Assembly (NCBI RefSeq): GCF_004087835.1
Contig: NZ_CP035119.1
Span: 2,852,001 to 2,916,000, forward strand
Reading direction: 5' to 3'
Source of the DNA: Halorussus pelagicus
GTDB lineage: Archaea; Halobacteriota; Halobacteria; Halobacteriales; Haladaptataceae
DNA: 64,000 nucleotides
Positions within the stretch are counted from its first letter, which is position 1, and every line of letters begins with the position of its first letter. The notes beneath the pieces were generated by a model. That model did not search any database. It saw only the letters and a program-made list of their open reading frames with translations, and had not been told where the DNA came from. Below, piece after piece: positions 28,979-62,746 of this stretch. Position numbers and translations under genes: made by a program.

Positions 28979-30698
28979 CCGCGACCACCTCCGAGTGGTC
29001 CGACTCGCTTCCCGAGTTCGGCGGCGCGAGTTCGTCCGTAATCTTCTCGAACGTCGAGCGGTCGCGCTCCTCTTGTTGGCGCACGCGCTCGGCGCGCTTG
29101 TCCGCCTTCTCGGTTAGCGCCTCGTCCTTCCAGTACGCGCGGTCCGCAACGTCCTCGAACTCCCGTGCGTGCGTGATTAGGTTCTCGACCAGCGCCCCGT
29201 ACTGGGCGGGCGCGAGGTTCGGGTCCGACTTCCCGACCGTCGGTTTCAGCACGGTCGCCAGCGCCGCGAGGACGCCGAACGCGATACCGAACCCCTCGTT
29301 GAACAGCAGTCCGCCGACGTAGTACGCCAGCCCGACCAGCAGGACCCCGCCGACAAGCGGCCCCCACGCGACCGAGGGAATCGGCCAGCGCCCCGCGACC
29401 AGTTCGTCCTCGTCGGGCCAGTCGAGCAAGTCCGGCGTCGAGAGGGTTAGCCCCGCCTTCTCGTAGTCGATAGGCGCGTCCGCCGTCGGGTCCGAGAGGA
29501 ACACTTCGTCGTACTCGTCATCGTTTTCGCGGCCGACCAGCCGAGTCCCGAGCGTCGCTTCGTCCACGTCCACCGTCGGCGCGGCGTTGTGGAACGGCCA
29601 GATAGCCACCAGCCACGGTATCCAGCCCTCTCGCCGAATCTTCCGACCCTCCGAGGTTTGCACCACGTTGTAGGCCCGCGTGCGGACGTGCCAGCGCCCC
29701 GTGCCGTCGTCCTTGATGCTGGCACTGTCCTCGCCGCTGGTCAACTGGAGGAACAGCACCTCCTCGGGGTGCTCTCCGAACATGAACAGCACTGTGACCC
29801 CGAGGAGCGCCCCGCCAGCGATACCGACCGACCACGGCGCGGTCGCCAGCAACTCCAACAGGCCGTTGTACCACACGAACACCGCGAGGAACGTTGCGAC
29901 GGCCAGCGCGAACACGACCTCCAGCGCCGAGACCATCGGCCCGTTGCCCACCTTGTCGAGGAACCGCCGGTCGAGCGCGATTATCCCGACCGACGTGAGC
30001 ATGCACGGCGCGAACATCCACACCGCGGCGAAGCCCGCGATACCGCCCGCTGACCGCATGGGGACCGACTGGGCCGCCTCTGAGACCGCGTAGCGGAACC
30101 GCCAGCTAACTTCGTCTCGGTGGCCCTCCATCCACACCGTCACGTACTTCGCGTCGCCGTAGTGGGCCGGAAGGTCGAGTTTTGCCGACCCGTAGTCGCC
30201 GCCCGTGAGCGTCGCCGAGACCGTCGTGTGCGTCGCGTTCGTCACGACGCGCTCGCGCACGGTCCGGTTGTTCTCGGTCGTTCGCTCGACCGTCTCGAAA
30301 TCCCACAGGACGACGTGGAACGTCGCGTCCATGTCCTCGGAGTCCCACCCGCGGAACGACCCGACGTAAATCGAATCACGCTGAACCGTCGTGCGAGGTT
30401 CGATGTACTGGCGGTCCTCCGGCGACGCCATGAACTCGACCGGAACGTGGCGAATCCAGAACGACCCAGCGTTGCCGTAGGGCCGAATCGCCTTGCTCGG
30501 TGCGTTCGACTTTACCGTGCCGTAGTCCGCGAGGTCGTCGTAGGTCCACGTCCCGTTCTCGGTACCCGTCGCGGTGCCCGACTGGTTCGCTCCGGCCCCG
30601 TCGTCTTGGGCGAGCGCGACGCCCCCGACGGCCGGGACCGCCAGCGAGAGGACCACGAACACCGCGAACGCGGCGCGTAGGCGTCTGTTCCCCGTCAT
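28968..30698 (-). CDS. Exported multi-span membrane protein of the operon
   Basis: A 576-aa protein. The ATG at 30696-30698 overlaps the previous stop as ATGA and opens a clear signal peptide (LRAAFAVFVVLSLAVPAVGG, then VALAQ). An ectodomain of about 150 residues follows. Three spans lie at about 200-310 (including FAAVWMFAPCMLTSVGIIAL), then a large cytoplasmic part with YNVVQTSEGRKIRREGWIPW, then two more spans near 440-490, and a charged tail ending SESDHSEVVAGDD. Frames extending upstream of the ATG are out-of-place Arg-rich translation. This is the central polytopic protein of the operon and could form a pore or scaffold. No family recognised. Confidence 0.72.
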   Translation of the reverse strand: MTGNRRLRAAFAVFVVLSLAVPAVGGVALAQDDGAGANQSGTATGTENGTWTYDDLADYGTVKSNAPSKAIRPYGNAGSFWIRHVPVEFMASPEDRQYIEPRTTVQRDSIYVGSFRGWDSEDMDATFHVVLWDFETVERTTENNRTVRERVVTNATHTTVSATLTGGDYGSAKLDLPAHYGDAKYVTVWMEGHRDEVSWRFRYAVSEAAQSVPMRSAGGIAGFAAVWMFAPCMLTSVGIIALDRRFLDKVGNGPMVSALEVVFALAVATFLAVFVWYNGLLELLATAPWSVGIAGGALLGVTVLFMFGEHPEEVLFLQLTSGEDSASIKDDGTGRWHVRTRAYNVVQTSEGRKIRREGWIPWLVAIWPFHNAAPTVDVDEATLGTRLVGRENDDEYDEVFLSDPTADAPIDYEKAGLTLSTPDLLDWPDEDELVAGRWPIPSVAWGPLVGGVLLVGLAYYVGGLLFNEGFGIAFGVLAALATVLKPTVGKSDPNLAPAQYGALVENLITHAREFEDVADRAYWKDEALTEKADKRAERVRQQEERDRSTFEKITDELAPPNSGSESDHSEVVAGDD

Positions 30699-53267: not shown

Positions 53268-53854
53268 TGCGGCGTCCACCACTCGACCGCGGGCGCGGCG
53301 TCGCCACCGACGGCGGGACTACGACCGAGGAGGACGAACCGGAAGTCACCGCCGAGTGGCTGGAAGGGCGGTACTTCTGTTACCCCATCGAGTGCGGCGT
53401 CTGCGGCGACCAACTCGCAGGACCCGAGGAGAACGGCGTCATCGGACGCGGCGACGCGCTCGCTATCGACGCCGACGGTCACACCGTCTGCCAGCACCAC
53501 ACCGACGAGATTCACTTCGTCGTCGCGGGCGTCTACGCCCACGGCGGGGGCACACCCTGCAAGACGAACCGTTCGTTCCGGCCCGAGGACGTAGTGACCG
53601 TCCGGGCAAGGAACGACGAAAACGACCGACTCGTCACCGACGGCGGTATCGTCAAGACTCCGGATACCGACACCCCGGCCGCGTACTCGGAACTCACCGA
53701 GGAGTGCGCCGAGTGCGAGCGCGAGACGGCCCACGAGGTCGCCGTCGAGATCCGGACCGAGAACCCGGACTCGCGGGCCTCGCGCGAACCGTACCGTGTC
53801 ACGGAGTGCGGCGTTTGTGGCGCGACCGAGGAGGTGCGACTGAACAATGCCTGA
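53267..53854 (+). CDS. Zinc protein of the integrase operon
   Basis: A 195-aa protein starting at ATG 53267. It has two metal centres: CGVCGDQLAG with CQHH near residues 45-80, and CAECERETAHEVAVEIR with CGVCGATEEV at the C-terminus. The latter half resembles small DUF7835-like zinc domains of haloarchaeal plasmids. It overlaps the integrase start by eight bases. It could be a recombination accessory (excisionase-like) or simply a coupled passenger. Confidence 0.62.
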   Translation: MRRPPLDRGRGVATDGGTTTEEDEPEVTAEWLEGRYFCYPIECGVCGDQLAGPEENGVIGRGDALAIDADGHTVCQHHTDEIHFVVAGVYAHGGGTPCKTNRSFRPEDVVTVRARNDENDRLVTDGGIVKTPDTDTPAAYSELTEECAECERETAHEVAVEIRTENPDSRASREPYRVTECGVCGATEEVRLNNA

Positions 53855-54884
53855 CCGAAACTCCCGCCGCGACCTCTCGCCGGTCGAGGCCGCCGAGCGG
53901 TTCATCGCCCGGCGCGAGAACGAGAACGCCTCCCGGACGGTCCGGAGTTACCGGAATCGCCTGAACGATTTCGTCCACTGGGCCGACGAGAACGAGGTCG
54001 AAACCATGCGCGAACTCGACGGGTGGCTCATCGACGAGTACACGCGCTACGTCCAGAGTGACGGTAACGCGCCGACGACCGTCAAGGGCAAGCTCTCGGC
54101 GCTCCGGCAACTCCTCGAATACTGCGTCTCCATCGAGGTCGCCGACGAGGGCCTGCCCCAGAAAGTCGAGATACCCTCGCTCTCGCGCAGCGAGGAGACC
54201 AGCGACGAGAAGCTGGACAGCGACGACGCGCGCCAGTTGCTCTCGTTCTTCCGGGACTCGACCAAGCATTACGGGACTATCCAGCACGTCATTCTGGAAC
54301 TCGTCTGGCACGTCGGCGGGCGAATCGGTTGCTTCCGCGCGCTCGACTTAGAGGACTGGCACCCCGACGAGCGGAAGCTTGAGTTCCGCCACCGACCGCC
54401 CACGCGGTTGAAGAAAGAGGAAGAACACGAGCGCAACGTCTTGGTGGCCGAGCCGGTCGCCGAGGCCCTACAGTTCTGGGTCGAGCGCGAGCGCCCGAGC
54501 AAGCGCGACGAGAACGGCCGGAATCCGTTGCTCACGACGAACCACGGCCGGGCTTCGGAGTCCTCGATTCGGTGCTGGGCGTATCAAGCGACCCAGCCGT
54601 GCCTCTACACGGCCTGTCCGCACAACCGGAAGCGCGACACCTGCGAGTTCACCCAGCGCGTGAAGTCCTCGCGGTGTCCGTCGAGTCGGTCGCCCCACGC
54701 GATTCGGACCGGCTCGATTACGTGGCAACTCAACTGCGGCATCTCGTACATCCGCGTGGCGAAGCGCGTCGCCGCGGAACCCGAGACCATCCGGCGTTAC
54801 TACGACAAGCCCAACTACGACGAGGAGTTGGAGCGCCGCCGACCGGACACCGAGGACCTCGACGTTCTCGACGCACCGTTCTGA
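53847..54884 (+). CDS. Tyrosine recombinase / integrase of the tRNA-Trp element
   Basis: A 345-aa phage-type integrase. The N-terminal core-binding SAM-like domain runs to about residue 110 (SRTVRSYRNRLNDFVHWADE). In the catalytic domain the first Arg is in WHVGGRIGCFRALDLEDW, HxxR is in SPHAIRTGSITWQL, and the nucleophile Tyr is probably in ETIRRYYDKPNY. A CxxxC-type insert (CLYTACPHNRKRDTCEF) is usual in haloarchaeal relatives. The right attachment site begins 97 bases after its stop. Confidence 0.9.
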   Translation: MPDRNSRRDLSPVEAAERFIARRENENASRTVRSYRNRLNDFVHWADENEVETMRELDGWLIDEYTRYVQSDGNAPTTVKGKLSALRQLLEYCVSIEVADEGLPQKVEIPSLSRSEETSDEKLDSDDARQLLSFFRDSTKHYGTIQHVILELVWHVGGRIGCFRALDLEDWHPDERKLEFRHRPPTRLKKEEEHERNVLVAEPVAEALQFWVERERPSKRDENGRNPLLTTNHGRASESSIRCWAYQATQPCLYTACPHNRKRDTCEFTQRVKSSRCPSSRSPHAIRTGSITWQLNCGISYIRVAKRVAAEPETIRRYYDKPNYDEELERRRPDTEDLDVLDAPF

Positions 54885-56415: not shown

Positions 56416-56495
56416 CCCCCACCGAACTCGTAACACTCCGCCCACCGCCATCTTGATGTATTCGCTCTACAGAGCGTGGCGTAAGCATGCCCACC

Positions 56496-57629
56496 ATGCG
56501 GACGCTCGCCGTCGTCGCACTCGTCGTTCTCGCGGGGTGCAGTGGCCCGTTGCAGGAGTCCGCGACGACCACGGCGGTACCGGACACGGCGACGGCGACG
56601 ACGCCGCCTGTAACAACCTCGACGTTCGATACGGGGACGACAGTCAGAGCTACGACTACGACGCCGACCACGACCCCGACGCCGACCGCCTCCACGACCA
56701 CGATAGAACAGCGACCCGCAGACAATCCGTGGGGCAGGCAGAAGGTGACAGTCGCGGTCCGGAACACGGCCGACCAGTCGCGGGACATCGCGCCGCTTGT
56801 CGAGCAGACGCTGGCGTACTGGAACGGCGAGGGGAGCGAGTACGCGGGCTACGAGGTCACGTTCGTTCGGGCGACGAACCCCCGCGACGCGGACATCGTC
56901 GTGGAGTCGGTCGATGAAGTCACCGAGTGTGACGGCGAGGACACGGACTCAGCGGTCGGTTGCGCACCGCTCCTCGACGCGCGGTCAACGCCGGAAACGC
57001 CCGCTCGCGTCGAGGTCGTCGCGGGCTACTCGAACGAATCGACGCGGACGATTCTCCGACACGAGTTCGGTCACGTCCTCGGCATCGAACACGGCGAGGA
57101 ACCGATGCCGACGATGCAAGCGATCTCGTCGTTCACCTACCTGTCGCAACCGGACCTCGCCGACCGAGCGGTGCCGTGGAAGAACGACACGCTCGCGGTC
57201 CACATCGACCTGTCGGGGCTTCCCGGCCACGACCGCGACGCGGCCCGCGAACAGGTCCGACACGCGCTGGACTACTACGAGTCAGGTGCTGACGGTGCGG
57301 TCCCGAGCAACGTCTCGTTCGAGCGAACGTCGAACCGGTCGGCGGTAGACGTGCGAATCGACTTCCCGGACGACCCCTTCGACTGCGGGAGCGAGCGCGT
57401 GCGAGAGGGGTCGTGCGGGTCGGCGTGGACGTACGACACCGACACTGACGACGCGCCCGAATACTTCGCGCAGTACGATATCCGCGTCCGTGGTCTCGAA
57501 ACCGAGGCAGTCGGCTGGCACGTTGGCTACTGGCTGGCGAACGCGCTGGGTCTCGGCGAGGACGAACTCCCGGCACCGTTCGTCGATGCGGGCCGCGACG
57601 ACCGGCGCGGGGAGTGGTGGACAACCTGA
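56496..57629 (+). CDS. Exported metzincin-type metalloprotease lipoprotein with a second, dead domain
   Basis: A 377-aa lipoprotein from ATG 56496: MRTLAVVALVVLAGCSG has a lipobox LAGC. A Thr/Pro-rich linker of about 55 residues follows. Domain 1 (about 80-205) carries the zinc motif HEFGHVLGIEH at 189-199 and looks matrixin-like. Domain 2 (about 230-365) repeats the same layout, but the motif has become HVGYWLANALGL, losing the Glu and the second His. It lies 121 bases upstream of lanM in the same direction, so a role in removing the lanthipeptide leader outside the cell is plausible but not shown. Confidence 0.78.
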   Translation: MRTLAVVALVVLAGCSGPLQESATTTAVPDTATATTPPVTTSTFDTGTTVRATTTTPTTTPTPTASTTTIEQRPADNPWGRQKVTVAVRNTADQSRDIAPLVEQTLAYWNGEGSEYAGYEVTFVRATNPRDADIVVESVDEVTECDGEDTDSAVGCAPLLDARSTPETPARVEVVAGYSNESTRTILRHEFGHVLGIEHGEEPMPTMQAISSFTYLSQPDLADRAVPWKNDTLAVHIDLSGLPGHDRDAAREQVRHALDYYESGADGAVPSNVSFERTSNRSAVDVRIDFPDDPFDCGSERVREGSCGSAWTYDTDTDDAPEYFAQYDIRVRGLETEAVGWHVGYWLANALGLGEDELPAPFVDAGRDDRRGEWWTT

Positions 57630-57750
57630 TCGGGGACTCACGGACGATTGCGCTCTTCCTCGTAAATTTCGACGCCATCGGCTTTGCTCGAACGTTTGGG
57701 TGCGAGGATAACAACCCTTAACACATCGTGCGCCCGGCATCGTGTATAGA

Positions 57751-60700
57751 ATGAGACCTGTGTTCACCGAGGAGGAACGGCATGAGATTGCCGGGCGCGC
57801 CCGAACGCTTGCGGAACGTCTCGACGGTCCGGCCAACACTGTCGGGTCGTCGCCGCCTATCGCCCCCGAGGAAGTCATCGAGGAGTGGCGACGGCGCTTC
57901 CCGAACGACGAGGCGTTTCGCGCTCGCCTCGCACGCGATGGTCTCACGGAGGCGGCGGTCCGCGAGCAGATCGCGGCGACCCGTTGGCCCGCCGACGAGC
58001 CGGTGCCCGACTGGCTCGACACCCTGTCGAGTTTGGTCCGTCACGTCGAGACGAGTTCGGCCGACGACCGGAACGCCGTCGCCACTCCCGACGAGACTCC
58101 GTTCGGGGAACTGCTCGCCGCAATCGCTGGCTTCGCCCGCGAACGGCGTCCTGAATCGGTCGTTCCGGCGACCGCGGTATCACCGATGGAGAAACACCTC
58201 GTAGGCCGACTCCGGTCGCTGTGCGTCCGGGCGCTGTACGTCGAGTTCAAGAGTTTCGTCGAGGTTCACGACTCGGAACTGGCGGCGACGAGTCCCGAGA
58301 CCGTGTCCGACCCCTCGACGGAATACTACGACCGGTTTATCTCGGCGATGATCGACGGCGGGTTCAAAAATCTGTGTCTTGAGTACCCGGTCCTCGCGCG
58401 GCAGTTAGTGGTCCTGCTTGAGGACTGGCAGAGCGCCGTCGCGGAACTGTGCCGCCGATTGGAGACCGACCGGGAATCGCTCCACCAGCGGTTCGAAGTC
58501 GCCGGTTCCGTGACGGCCCTTGAACCGTTGACCACGGATACACACGCTGGCGGCCGAGTTCCGGTGCGAGTCTCCTTCGAGGAGGGGAGCGTCGTCTACA
58601 AACCGCGGCCGGTCGATGGCGAGAATGCGCTCTACACGATTCTGCACCGACTGGACGACCGTCTCTCGACCCCGCAGTTCGAGACTCCCTCGCTGCTCGC
58701 GCGCGAGGAGTACGGATGGATGGAACTGGCCGAGTACCGCGACCTCCCCGAAGCGTCCGCCGCCGACCGCTACTACGAGCGGGCGGGGACGTTGCTGTGT
58801 CTCGCGTACGTTCTCAACGCGACCGACTGTCACTACGAGAACGTCATCGCCGACGGCGAGATACCGACGATAGTTGACGGTGAGACAGTGTTTCACCCCC
58901 ACGTCGAGTCGGACGCGAAGCCGTTCGAGACCGAAGCCAGCGCTGTGATCGACCGGTCGGTCCTGCTGTCGGTGTTGTTGCCTTTCTCCGTCGGCGACCC
59001 CCGCGAATCACACGGCGGGCGATTCGCCGACAAGGTCGCCGGATTCGGAAGCGATAGCGAGCAGACGCCGCTCCCGAACCGATCCACGCCCGCTATCGAG
59101 GCGGTCAACACGGACGTGATGTCCGTCGAGATGGAGTCCGTAACCGTTGACCCGAGTACGAACACGCCGACCGAGGGGAGTTCCGACCGACCGCCGGAAG
59201 ACCATGTGGACGCCCTGATTCGAGGTTTCGAGGAGACCTACGAGAAGATACGCGAGTTACACGCCGACGGTCGGTTTCGCTCCGAGATCGCCGACCCGGA
59301 ACTCGTCGAGGCGGTCGAAACGCGACTGCTCTACCGGTCAACCGGCCGGTACGCGTCGGTCCTCCGGTCGGCGGCCGCTCGGGACCCGCTGCGGGACGGC
59401 GCTCGACTGACAGTCGAGTTCGAGGATCTCGCGGTGCCGTTTTTCGACGGTACCGTCGAGTCGGATCGACTCTGGCCGATGTACGCGTCCGAGCGACGTT
59501 CGCTCCGGAACCTCGACGTGCCGAGATTCGCGGCGCGCGCGGACCGACCGGCGGTTTTTCATCGGGGGGAGCAACTGGACGTTACCACCGACAGTACGGG
59601 GTACGACTTCGTCCGCCAGCGACTCGACACGATGGACGGAACCGACCGGCGACGCCAGACGTGGCTGATTCGGCAGGCGCTCGGTGGGGTAACGGCGGCC
59701 GAAGGAGCGCCACCGCCCGCGGGTGACGCCTCCGCGGAGCGATTCCGGCGGGAAGCAATCGACCTGTTCGACGGCGTGGTTGACGCGATGGTTGAGGCGG
59801 GGGACGACGCCAGTTGGGTCTCTATAGTTCCTCAGTCGGGAATCAACCTCTACCCGGCCGACCATTCGCTCTTCTGGGGTGCGGGCGGCATCGCGCTGAC
59901 CGCGACCGCACTGTACGATGCGACCGGTCGGGAACGCTACCGGCACCTCGTCGAAGAGACGCTATCCCCGGTCGTCGAGGATGTCACCGACGGGCCCATT
60001 TCGGCGGGCCACGGCGGAACGCAGGGAATCGGCTCCGTCATCTACGTCCTCTCGGTCGTCGCGGAACTCCTCGGCGACGACCGGTATCGAGACGCCGCTC
60101 TCGCGGCGGCGGAGACAATCACGTCCGACAGCGTTGCCGACGCCGACTCGCTCGATGTCGTGGACGGCGTCGCGGGGACGCTACTGGGCCTGCTCGCGTA
60201 TCACGAACGGTACGGCGGCGCTGGCATCCTCGACCGAGCGGTCGAGTGCGGCGAGCGATTGCTCGACGCGCGGACCGAAGTCGAGGGGTATCTCGTCTGG
60301 GAGACCACCGACGAGGAGATACCGGCTACCGGCTTTGCACACGGCTCTACCGGCATCGCGTACGCGCTCGCCAGACTGGCCGCGGCGACGAACGACGCGC
60401 GATACGCCGAGGCGGCGCGCGAGGCACTTGACTTCGAGGCGTCGCTGTACTCGTCGTCTCGCAACAACTGGCCCCAATCCGCCGCAGGAGACGCCTATCA
60501 GGACCGATGGTGTCACGGACGGACGGGGATGGCGCTCGGCCGAGTAGCTATCGGAGAACTGCTCGATGACGACGCGCTCGTCGCGGACGCGGCCGACGCA
60601 CTGGCCGAGACCGGAACCGACGAGCCATCCCATCTCGATAATCTCTGCTGTGGGAACTTTGGCCGCGTCGAAGCTCTACTGGTCGGTTCACGTCGCGCTG

Positions 60701-60897
60701 GGTGTGACGAGTCGCTCGCGGTCGAACTGGCGAGGCGGTGTCTCGCTCGTCGGGACCGCGACGGCGCACTCTCGCTGCCCGCACACTCTCGAGAGTTCGT
60801 GAATCCGACGTTCTTCGACGGCGTCGCCGGGCCGTCGTACGCGCTTCTCCGCCTCCGAAATCCCGACACGTTGCCCTGTGTGCTCCTGTTAGAGTGA
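57751..60897 (+). CDS. lanM: Class II lanthipeptide synthetase LanM
   Basis: A 1048-aa bifunctional enzyme that dehydrates Ser/Thr and then joins them to Cys as thioethers. The N-terminal dehydratase (DUF4135 type) shows SVVYKPRPVDGENALYTILH near residue 280 and ATDCHYENVIADGEIPTIVD near 358, the kinase-like phosphate-transfer and elimination residues. The LanC-like cyclase follows from about 710: GHGGTQGIGS, FAHGSTGIAYALA, and zinc ligands in WCHGRTG (Cys 921) and LCCGNFG (Cys 966/967). Length is normal for LanM. The ATG at 57751 is preferred to a GTG three codons earlier. A likely precursor gene lies 245 bases downstream. Confidence 0.93.
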   Translation: MRPVFTEEERHEIAGRARTLAERLDGPANTVGSSPPIAPEEVIEEWRRRFPNDEAFRARLARDGLTEAAVREQIAATRWPADEPVPDWLDTLSSLVRHVETSSADDRNAVATPDETPFGELLAAIAGFARERRPESVVPATAVSPMEKHLVGRLRSLCVRALYVEFKSFVEVHDSELAATSPETVSDPSTEYYDRFISAMIDGGFKNLCLEYPVLARQLVVLLEDWQSAVAELCRRLETDRESLHQRFEVAGSVTALEPLTTDTHAGGRVPVRVSFEEGSVVYKPRPVDGENALYTILHRLDDRLSTPQFETPSLLAREEYGWMELAEYRDLPEASAADRYYERAGTLLCLAYVLNATDCHYENVIADGEIPTIVDGETVFHPHVESDAKPFETEASAVIDRSVLLSVLLPFSVGDPRESHGGRFADKVAGFGSDSEQTPLPNRSTPAIEAVNTDVMSVEMESVTVDPSTNTPTEGSSDRPPEDHVDALIRGFEETYEKIRELHADGRFRSEIADPELVEAVETRLLYRSTGRYASVLRSAAARDPLRDGARLTVEFEDLAVPFFDGTVESDRLWPMYASERRSLRNLDVPRFAARADRPAVFHRGEQLDVTTDSTGYDFVRQRLDTMDGTDRRRQTWLIRQALGGVTAAEGAPPPAGDASAERFRREAIDLFDGVVDAMVEAGDDASWVSIVPQSGINLYPADHSLFWGAGGIALTATALYDATGRERYRHLVEETLSPVVEDVTDGPISAGHGGTQGIGSVIYVLSVVAELLGDDRYRDAALAAAETITSDSVADADSLDVVDGVAGTLLGLLAYHERYGGAGILDRAVECGERLLDARTEVEGYLVWETTDEEIPATGFAHGSTGIAYALARLAAATNDARYAEAAREALDFEASLYSSSRNNWPQSAAGDAYQDRWCHGRTGMALGRVAIGELLDDDALVADAADALAETGTDEPSHLDNLCCGNFGRVEALLVGSRRAGCDESLAVELARRCLARRDRDGALSLPAHSREFVNPTFFDGVAGPSYALLRLRNPDTLPCVLLLE

Positions 60898-61142
60898 TTG
60901 TCGAATCGAGTTTTTCGGGTTCGTACCGGACGCTTCGGAGCCGAAGTCCTCTTGACCGCAACGAAACGCGAGAACTGACATATCAGATTAACTAGCCCGG
61001 TTAGTATATTAAATCGTAAGTTTAGATGCGCGTATAGAATATTGTTCACAGTGAATAAGCTACATAAAACAATGGTTCTATTACATATGTATGTGATACA
61101 ATAAAAAGTTTTAATATTTAATGGCTTATAATTCCAATTGCG
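60898..61142 (+). promoter_or_regulatory. AT-rich promoter region of the lanthipeptide precursor
   Basis: A strongly AT-rich 245-base gap between lanM and the precursor. TTTTAATATTTAA at about 61108-61120 lies 25-35 bases before the ATG, the right distance for a leaderless transcript. A small palindrome TTCAC-A-GTGAA (61045-61055) lies further up and could be an operator. The separate strong promoter suggests that the precursor is made in excess over its enzyme. Confidence 0.55.
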
Positions 61143-61292
61143 ATGTCTGTTGCAATTGACACTGACGCTGGCAGCAAGGAAGAGTACGACAACGAGTTCA
61201 CCGTGTCCCCGTCCACCGACGAGGCACCCGAGCAGGAAGCGCATCACCGCGACGGTTGCGGTTTCACCTGTAGCCCGTTCTCCAGCTGGTAA
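61143..61292 (+). CDS. lanA: Putative lanthipeptide precursor (LanA)
   Basis: A 49-aa peptide. The first 35 residues are an acidic leader (MSVAIDTDAGSKEEYDNEFT ...). The C-terminal core reads HHRDGCGFTCSPFSSW, with Cys 39 and Cys 43 as the only cysteines and Thr 42, Ser 44, Ser 47 and Ser 48 as dehydration candidates. Such Ser/Thr/Cys packing at the end of a short acidic peptide beside lanM is the hallmark of a class II precursor. No GG cleavage motif is seen. At least one ring would have the Cys before its partner, or use leader-proximal Ser/Thr. A T-run follows the stop. Confidence 0.75.
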   Translation: MSVAIDTDAGSKEEYDNEFTVSPSTDEAPEQEAHHRDGCGFTCSPFSSW

Positions 61293-61507: not shown

Positions 61508-62746
61508 ATGGCATCAGACCTATCGAGGAGGAAATACCTCAAATACACTGCCGGTTCGCTACCGATGGCGACCGGTCTCTCGGGGTGTCTCGGTTCGCTC
61601 GGGTCGTCCCCGATTCGGCTGGGAACCATCCTGCCGCTGTCGTCGTCCACGTTGGGTCCCATCGTCCAGGACCATCTCGCGGCGGTCGAACAGGCCGTCG
61701 CCGACCTCAACAGCGCGGGTGGCCCGCTCGGACGGACCGTCGAACTCACCGTCGAGAAGACCGACGGCACTCCCGAAGAGACAAACGCGGCGTTCGACTC
61801 GCTCGTCGAGGAGGGCGTCGCCGGACTCGTCGGACCGCTCACATCGGGCAACTCGCTGTCACTCGCGGACCGACTCGCCGAAGAGCGAGTGATGAGCGTC
61901 AGCCACTCCGCGACGAACCCGAAACTCGAAACGGCGGGGACGGCCGAGAAAACGAAGTATTTCGGCCGGACGATAGCGAACGACGCCCAGCAGGCGACCG
62001 TGATGGCGAAAATCCTCGAAGGTGAACGATACATCGACGCCGAGACGGCCGCGATACTCTACGTTGACAACGCGTTTGGCGGCGGACTCGCCGACGAGAT
62101 CGAGCGAGCCACGTCCGACGTGGAAACGGTCCGGATACCGTTCGACGGCGGGAAGGACTCGTACTCCGCGGAGGTCGGCGCGCTGATGGAGACCGACGCG
62201 GACGCCGTCGCGTTCGTCAACGTCCCCGGAAACAACACGGTTATCGAAGCCCTCGGAAAGAGCGAGTACGACGGGCAGGCGGTGCTATCGACGGGGTATC
62301 TGACTGGCGATATCCCCGACTACATGGACGGCATGTACAGCGCGTCGGTCGCGGAAGCCAACACCACGGGCGAAGTGACCCTCCGCCAGAAACTGCGCGA
62401 CATCGAACCGTTGAGAGCCTACACGCTCCAGGGCTACGACGCGCTGTTCTTGCAGGCGCTCGCCATCGAGCGCGCCGGAGAAGCTAGTGGGACGGCGATC
62501 AGCGAGAACCTGCGCGCGGTGTCCGGTGGCCGAGGCCACACCGTCTCGGTCGATGACTTCGAGCGCGCCGCGAACCTGTTCGAGGCGGGACGCGAGGTGA
62601 ACTATCAGGGTGCGTCGAGCAGCGTCGATCTGAACGAGAACCTCGAACCGCTCAACCCCTACATCGTCGAGCGAGTCGAGGACGGAACGGTGAGGCAACT
62701 AGAGCTACTGCAGGAGTCGTACTTCGAGGGAGGGCAAGGACAATGA
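61508..62746 (+). CDS. Tat-exported lipoprotein, amino-acid-type substrate-binding protein
   Basis: A 412-aa periplasmic-binding type I protein of the Leu/Ile/Val-binding group. The N-terminus has a Tat motif (SRRKYLKYTAG) and a lipobox (TGLSGC). Binding-fold landmarks are IRLGTILPLSSSTLGPIVQD and LVGPLTSGNSLSLADRLAEE. An AT-rich box (GATTATATAATAG) lies about 30 bases upstream. It overlaps the chemoreceptor gene by four bases (ATGA) and no ABC permease follows. The most likely role is sensing: it would deliver a bound solute to the receptor, as BasB and CosB do for BasT and CosT in Halobacterium. Confidence 0.85.
   Translation: MASDLSRRKYLKYTAGSLPMATGLSGCLGSLGSSPIRLGTILPLSSSTLGPIVQDHLAAVEQAVADLNSAGGPLGRTVELTVEKTDGTPEETNAAFDSLVEEGVAGLVGPLTSGNSLSLADRLAEERVMSVSHSATNPKLETAGTAEKTKYFGRTIANDAQQATVMAKILEGERYIDAETAAILYVDNAFGGGLADEIERATSDVETVRIPFDGGKDSYSAEVGALMETDADAVAFVNVPGNNTVIEALGKSEYDGQAVLSTGYLTGDIPDYMDGMYSASVAEANTTGEVTLRQKLRDIEPLRAYTLQGYDALFLQALAIERAGEASGTAISENLRAVSGGRGHTVSVDDFERAANLFEAGREVNYQGASSSVDLNENLEPLNPYIVERVEDGTVRQLELLQESYFEGGQGQ

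Follow-up and report, generated by a model that had tools for sequence, protein, structure and literature searches.

An archalan-alpha locus in Halorussus pelagicus, its variant relatives and a candidate leader protease

The class II locus and its synthetase

We analysed a 64,000-nucleotide stretch of the Halorussus pelagicus genome, here called the window (C1:2852001-2916000 of G000, our label for this genome of 3.49 Mb in 4 contigs). The locus and its neighbours comprise the following features.

56487..57629, + strand: matrixin-like zinc metalloprotease, predicted lipoprotein and candidate leader protease, from a profile match and motifs
57742..60897, + strand: LanM class II lanthipeptide synthetase, GTG start, 1051 aa (ATG 57751 is an alternative start)
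LanM lyase/kinase-region motifs, intact: TDTHAGG 265, VYKPR 285, DCHYENV 362, VDGETVF 378, LYRSTGRY 530
LanM cyclase-region motifs, intact: GFAHGSTG 864, RWCHG 922, NLCCG 967
61103..61119, + strand: BRE/TATA-like promoter element AAAAAGTTTTAATATTT, from an alignment of four orthologous upstream regions
61143..61292, + strand: archalan alpha precursor (LanA), 49 aa, starting 245 bases after lanM
61254..61289, + strand: core peptide GCGFTCSPFSSW, the last 12 residues, identical to published archalan alpha
61508-62746 and past the window end (L059:4744-7155): branched-chain-amino-acid-type binding lipoprotein, then a Cache-HAMP-MCP transducer

The initial annotation placed here a class II lanthipeptide locus with a single small precursor and a full-length LanM whose dehydratase and zinc cyclase motifs are intact, and our analysis bears it out. 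In a profile search, the LanM reaches 662.6 bits with TIGR03897, whose cut-off is 304, and its DUF4135 (E 7.8e-87) and LANC_like (E 4.8e-53) domains both exceed their family cut-offs, giving the fusion of dehydratase and LanC-like cyclase that marks class II. The adjoining conserved 49-residue gene encodes a leader and a core with Cys and Ser/Thr, as expected of a class II precursor. In the PDB, only LicM2 and CylM match LanM at E <= 0.001, and alignment to these two placed the motifs listed above; we presume their roles and catalytic residues to be those assigned in the LanM/LanC literature. The window LanM shares the two-domain build and aligned motifs of the bacterial CylM/LicM2 type, whereas its third zinc-ligand position carries a Cys (LCCG) in place of the LCHG of both bacterial enzymes. 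A regular-expression scan found LCCG in 18 of the 25 LanMs scanned, with the other 7 returning no match. The locus is real and belongs to class II; its product is already characterised, so that it is not new in kind.

The precursor, its product and its relatives

The core is identical, in 12 of 12 letters, to that of archalan alpha (GCGFTCSPFSSW), which the available text of PMC10105419 describes as isolated from Halorussus salinus YJ-37-H, inhibitory to haloarchaea and the first lantibiotic from Archaea. For the core with two dehydrations we computed an [M+2H]2+ of 621.7390, against 621.7382 in the accessible part of the publication. The computed value is 593.228 for the form lacking Gly1, and 609.241 and 650.250 for the variant cores of G090 and G055. 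NMR data in that part place the rings at Cys2-Thr5 (DL-MeLan) and Cys6-Ser10 (LL-Lan). Since Cys lies N-terminal to its partner in both published rings (PMC10105419, available text), the unusual ring direction suspected from the H. pelagicus sequence is correct and was already proven. That proof was obtained in H. salinus; for the window peptide, we infer the same connectivity from the identical core. Among bacterial lanthipeptides, mersacidin ring A and some prochlorosins share this ring direction, the Cys coming before the dehydrated residue. The literature examined, available in part, yielded no report of an archalan alpha product from the window organism.

When aln-alpha was expressed in the host Haloferax volcanii, archalan alpha2 was obtained (PMC12144867, accessible portion), so that a leader-free product could be obtainable in a foreign haloarchaeal host. 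Its key ions in that portion are b4 and b9 instead of b5 and b10, which suggests that archalan alpha2 is the form without Gly1, arising by ragged trimming. A two-ring analogue of archalan alpha, Medlan B from Haloferax mediterranei (PMC12144867, accessible portion), is likened to it here by description only; H. mediterranei was sought through the genus of G250, which gave only matches at E 0.12 and 0.71.

Among the 392 genomes of our order sample, the precursor occurs in four: G000, G090, G118 and G055. The search within G000 itself gave one match, a search of all 18 Halorussus genomes returned the same three (G000, G090 and G118), and among the 125 genomes of the family of G055 only G055 carries it. 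A search of viral contigs gave no match, nor did one of plasmids with the precursor. Because G118 encodes four published cores (archalan alpha, beta and gamma, and sallan) and has six LanM loci, we take it to be H. salinus YJ-37-H. Its aln-alpha locus has lanM followed by lanA on one strand, as in the window, with the protease in the vicinity of both; the LanMs are 68-72% identical and the precursors ~78% identical. The core GCGFTCSPFSSW is common to G000 and G118, and the variant loci L043 and L044 encode GCGFTCSPFSTF (G090) and GCGFTCSPFSSWG (G055), ending in ..FSTF and ..SSWG. Cys2, Thr5, Cys6 and Ser10 are kept in all four cores, and the D/G site and the HRD preceding it are invariant in all four precursors. 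In a tree of 16 LanMs chosen from 25 loci, those of the window, G090, G118 and G055 form one clade with support 100/100. G055 lies outside the Halorussus family, yet its LanM falls within this clade, which hints that the archalan-alpha locus passed between families. At L044, lanA stands before lanM, and an ABC-2-like pair adjoins.

With only 49 codons, 61143-61292 might be a chance open reading frame beside a LanM of other function. Its core is identical to a structurally solved product, orthologues adjoin three more LanMs (the conserved precursor whose absence beside related lanM genes had been named as grounds for doubt), and dN is smaller than dS for each of the six pairings of the four orthologues (dN 0.04-0.28, dS 0.29-0.97, dN/dS ~0.12-0.45). 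By these comparisons, 61143-61292 is a real gene and the precursor is under purifying selection; a chance origin has a vanishing probability, and we dropped it on the strength of the core identity and the selection.

The precursor gene had also been described as separately promoted, in keeping with AAAAAGTTTTAATATTT at 61103-61119, which we take to be a BRE/TATA pair. The element is partly conserved across the four upstream regions, most weakly in G055, and sits shortly 5' of ATG 61143, so that, if it is such a pair, the transcript would be leaderless; the predicted promoter suits this arrangement. The leader is acidic (MSVAIDTDAGSKEEYDNEF...) and carries the motif KxxYDxxF, common to many other haloarchaeal precursors. 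As first noted, we found no GG (double-glycine) site in it, and no obvious signal peptide in the precursor.

Export and leader removal

Archalan alpha is known already, together with its reversed rings and its activity, and the value of this locus is comparative. It adds two variant cores in which neither ring pair is lost, a sister genome whose corresponding site is empty, and a linked candidate protease, which together make leader loss in archaeal lanthipeptides testable.

Bacterial class II systems of the CylM/LicM2 type export through a nearby C39-ABC transporter and cut at a double-glycine site, whereas the window locus has neither a C39 LanT nor a GG leader. In line with the initial reading that LanT is missing, a motif scan found C39 at none of 25 LanM loci (coverage 2.9-7 kb a side) and at no place from window position 30001 to ~29 kb past the window end. 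The ABC ATPase motif pair is likewise absent from 30001 to 76895; the nearest ABC ATPase by motif stands at 76896, beyond the window end. By motif, an ABC ATPase is present at 13 of the 25 LanM loci; in G055 one lies, with an ABC-2-like permease (28.7 bits, below the cut-off of 31.6), directly upstream of lanA.

From these observations, we hold with high confidence that the locus makes archalan alpha, a peptide with two rings that is cut at D37/G38 by a protease likely not dedicated to it and exported without a C39 LanT near the locus. In this proposal, LanM would bind the acidic leader and dehydrate Thr5 and Ser10 of the core, and Cys2 and Cys6 would then add to the dehydrated partners to close two rings, each with its Cys on the N-terminal side. 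The leader would be cut between D37 and G38, probably by a protease that is not dedicated to the archalan-alpha locus, export would follow a route other than a C39 LanT near the locus, and the released peptide would inhibit other haloarchaea. The chemistry is proven elsewhere; for the window locus we presume that LanM recognises the leader, that the cut falls at D37/G38 and that export takes such a route.

The gene upstream of lanM had been called the obvious candidate for leader removal. Its product matches Matrixin at 28.4 bits (cut-off 24; E 1.8e-6), carries HEFGHVLGIEH at residue 192, the HExxHxxGxxH signature of the M10 family, and has a lipobox-like LAGC and a Thr-rich linker. The literature examined, available in part, gave no account of a matrixin in haloarchaea. 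By eye, residues ~230-380 look like a degenerate second half, with HVGYW at 345 in the place of the zinc motif. The position once given for the start of the locus, 56496, is the second ATG inside this reading frame, whose first ATG is at 56487; the locus genes themselves are real.

Could this lipoprotein be dedicated to leader cleavage, working outside the membrane once the precursor, its leader still attached, has been exported? Its position argues for such a role. Three of 25 LanM loci have a zincin within 7 kb; these are exactly the three archalan-alpha loci of Halorussus, and the remaining 22 loci have none. Of the four archalan-alpha loci, only that of G055 is without the protease. It stands immediately upstream, as first described, in the window (~113 bp) and in G090 (~97 bp), on the strand of lanM, but this does not extend to H. 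salinus (G118), where it lies 4.0 kb upstream behind two chemotaxis-like genes. The sister genome G136 has the equivalent interval with DUF5794, the binding protein, the transducer, Pol IV and HerA arranged alike, but lanM, lanA and the protease are not there; the G136 orthologue of the protease is located elsewhere. The wider occurrence of the protease tells against a dedicated role. Homologues occur in 18 of 18 Halorussus genomes, and orthologues in the sisters G114, G136 and G176, all without archalan alpha, lie away from any archalan-alpha locus. In a tree built from 25 of the 30 places of a Halorussus search and 4 of the 16 of the search that gave the G055 match, five of the eight members of the orthologue clade lack the peptide (G114, G136, G176, G130 and G074). 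One subclade consists of six Halorussus genomes, three of them with archalan alpha and three without, and descent therefore explains the presence of the protease, though not its position. We accordingly dropped co-occurrence with the peptide as proof of a link. The position beside the archalan-alpha lanM, unlike presence, is suggestive of one, with a small number of loci. Further, all that G055 offers, though it encodes an archalan-alpha core too, is a 136-residue match at 32%, and the precursor, without an obvious signal peptide, would have to be exported beforehand. The claim that this protease is the obvious leader peptidase thus does not stand, and we consider a dedicated role unlikely.

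Rather, we moderately favor general proteases as the agents of leader removal, whether extracellular or cytosolic (halolysin-type serine proteases, for instance, or peptidases encoded elsewhere), with aminopeptidase trimming to follow. In the accessible portion of PMC12144867, generic host peptidases are inferred to act on larlan, and extraneous proteases on archalan beta and DADC lanthipeptides; the b4 and b9 ions of archalan alpha2, read as loss of Gly1, point to ragged trimming, and the available text of PMC12893001 has the halolysin HlyR4 activating another haloarchaeal precursor. Against general proteases, HRD and the D/G site are fully conserved in 4 of 4 precursors, which hints at specific recognition. 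A more particular scenario, in which the matrixin-like surface lipoprotein was recruited next to the archalan-alpha lanM of Halorussus and cuts at HRD/G outside the membrane, while the G055 lineage, with its ABC-2-like pair beside lanA, arrived at an unrelated solution, seems to us unlikely. If true, it would mean lanthipeptide maturation by a surface zincin together with a non-LanT exporter.

Surroundings of the locus and further LanM loci

The binding lipoprotein and transducer, which we liken to haloarchaeal BasB/BasT, lie beside the archalan-alpha genes in the window genome, after lanA, and in H. salinus, between the protease and lanM. We dropped the pair as a part of the system, given its absence beside the G090 locus and its presence without the peptide in G136. 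Archaeal lanthipeptides affect motility according to the accessible portion of PMC12144867, and a link between the pair and this effect would be speculation.

A tyrosine-recombinase/integrase gene lies at window positions 53847-54884, upstream of the archalan-alpha locus; this gene and the vacant G136 site are both in keeping with a variable interval. Plasmids searched for a piece of contig 4 of G000 gave no match.

The window genome has four LanMs. One of the further loci is L058:

L058 (G000 C1:1976000-1995900): one LanM with two related precursors beside it, that of pellan and GSSICGASMDPICGSPGEDDEMEF

The pellan core encoded there is STGCYISDKPVCI, and pellan is attributed to H. pelagicus RC-68 in the accessible portion of PMC12144867, which makes the window genome probably that of this strain. 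At the further LanM loci L056 and L057 (G000 C1, ~530 kb and ~905 kb), candidate precursors end in YCHSNPVCTFCGPEDSDA and TLTMGCGSY. One LanM, at L045, is flanked by four related small precursors.
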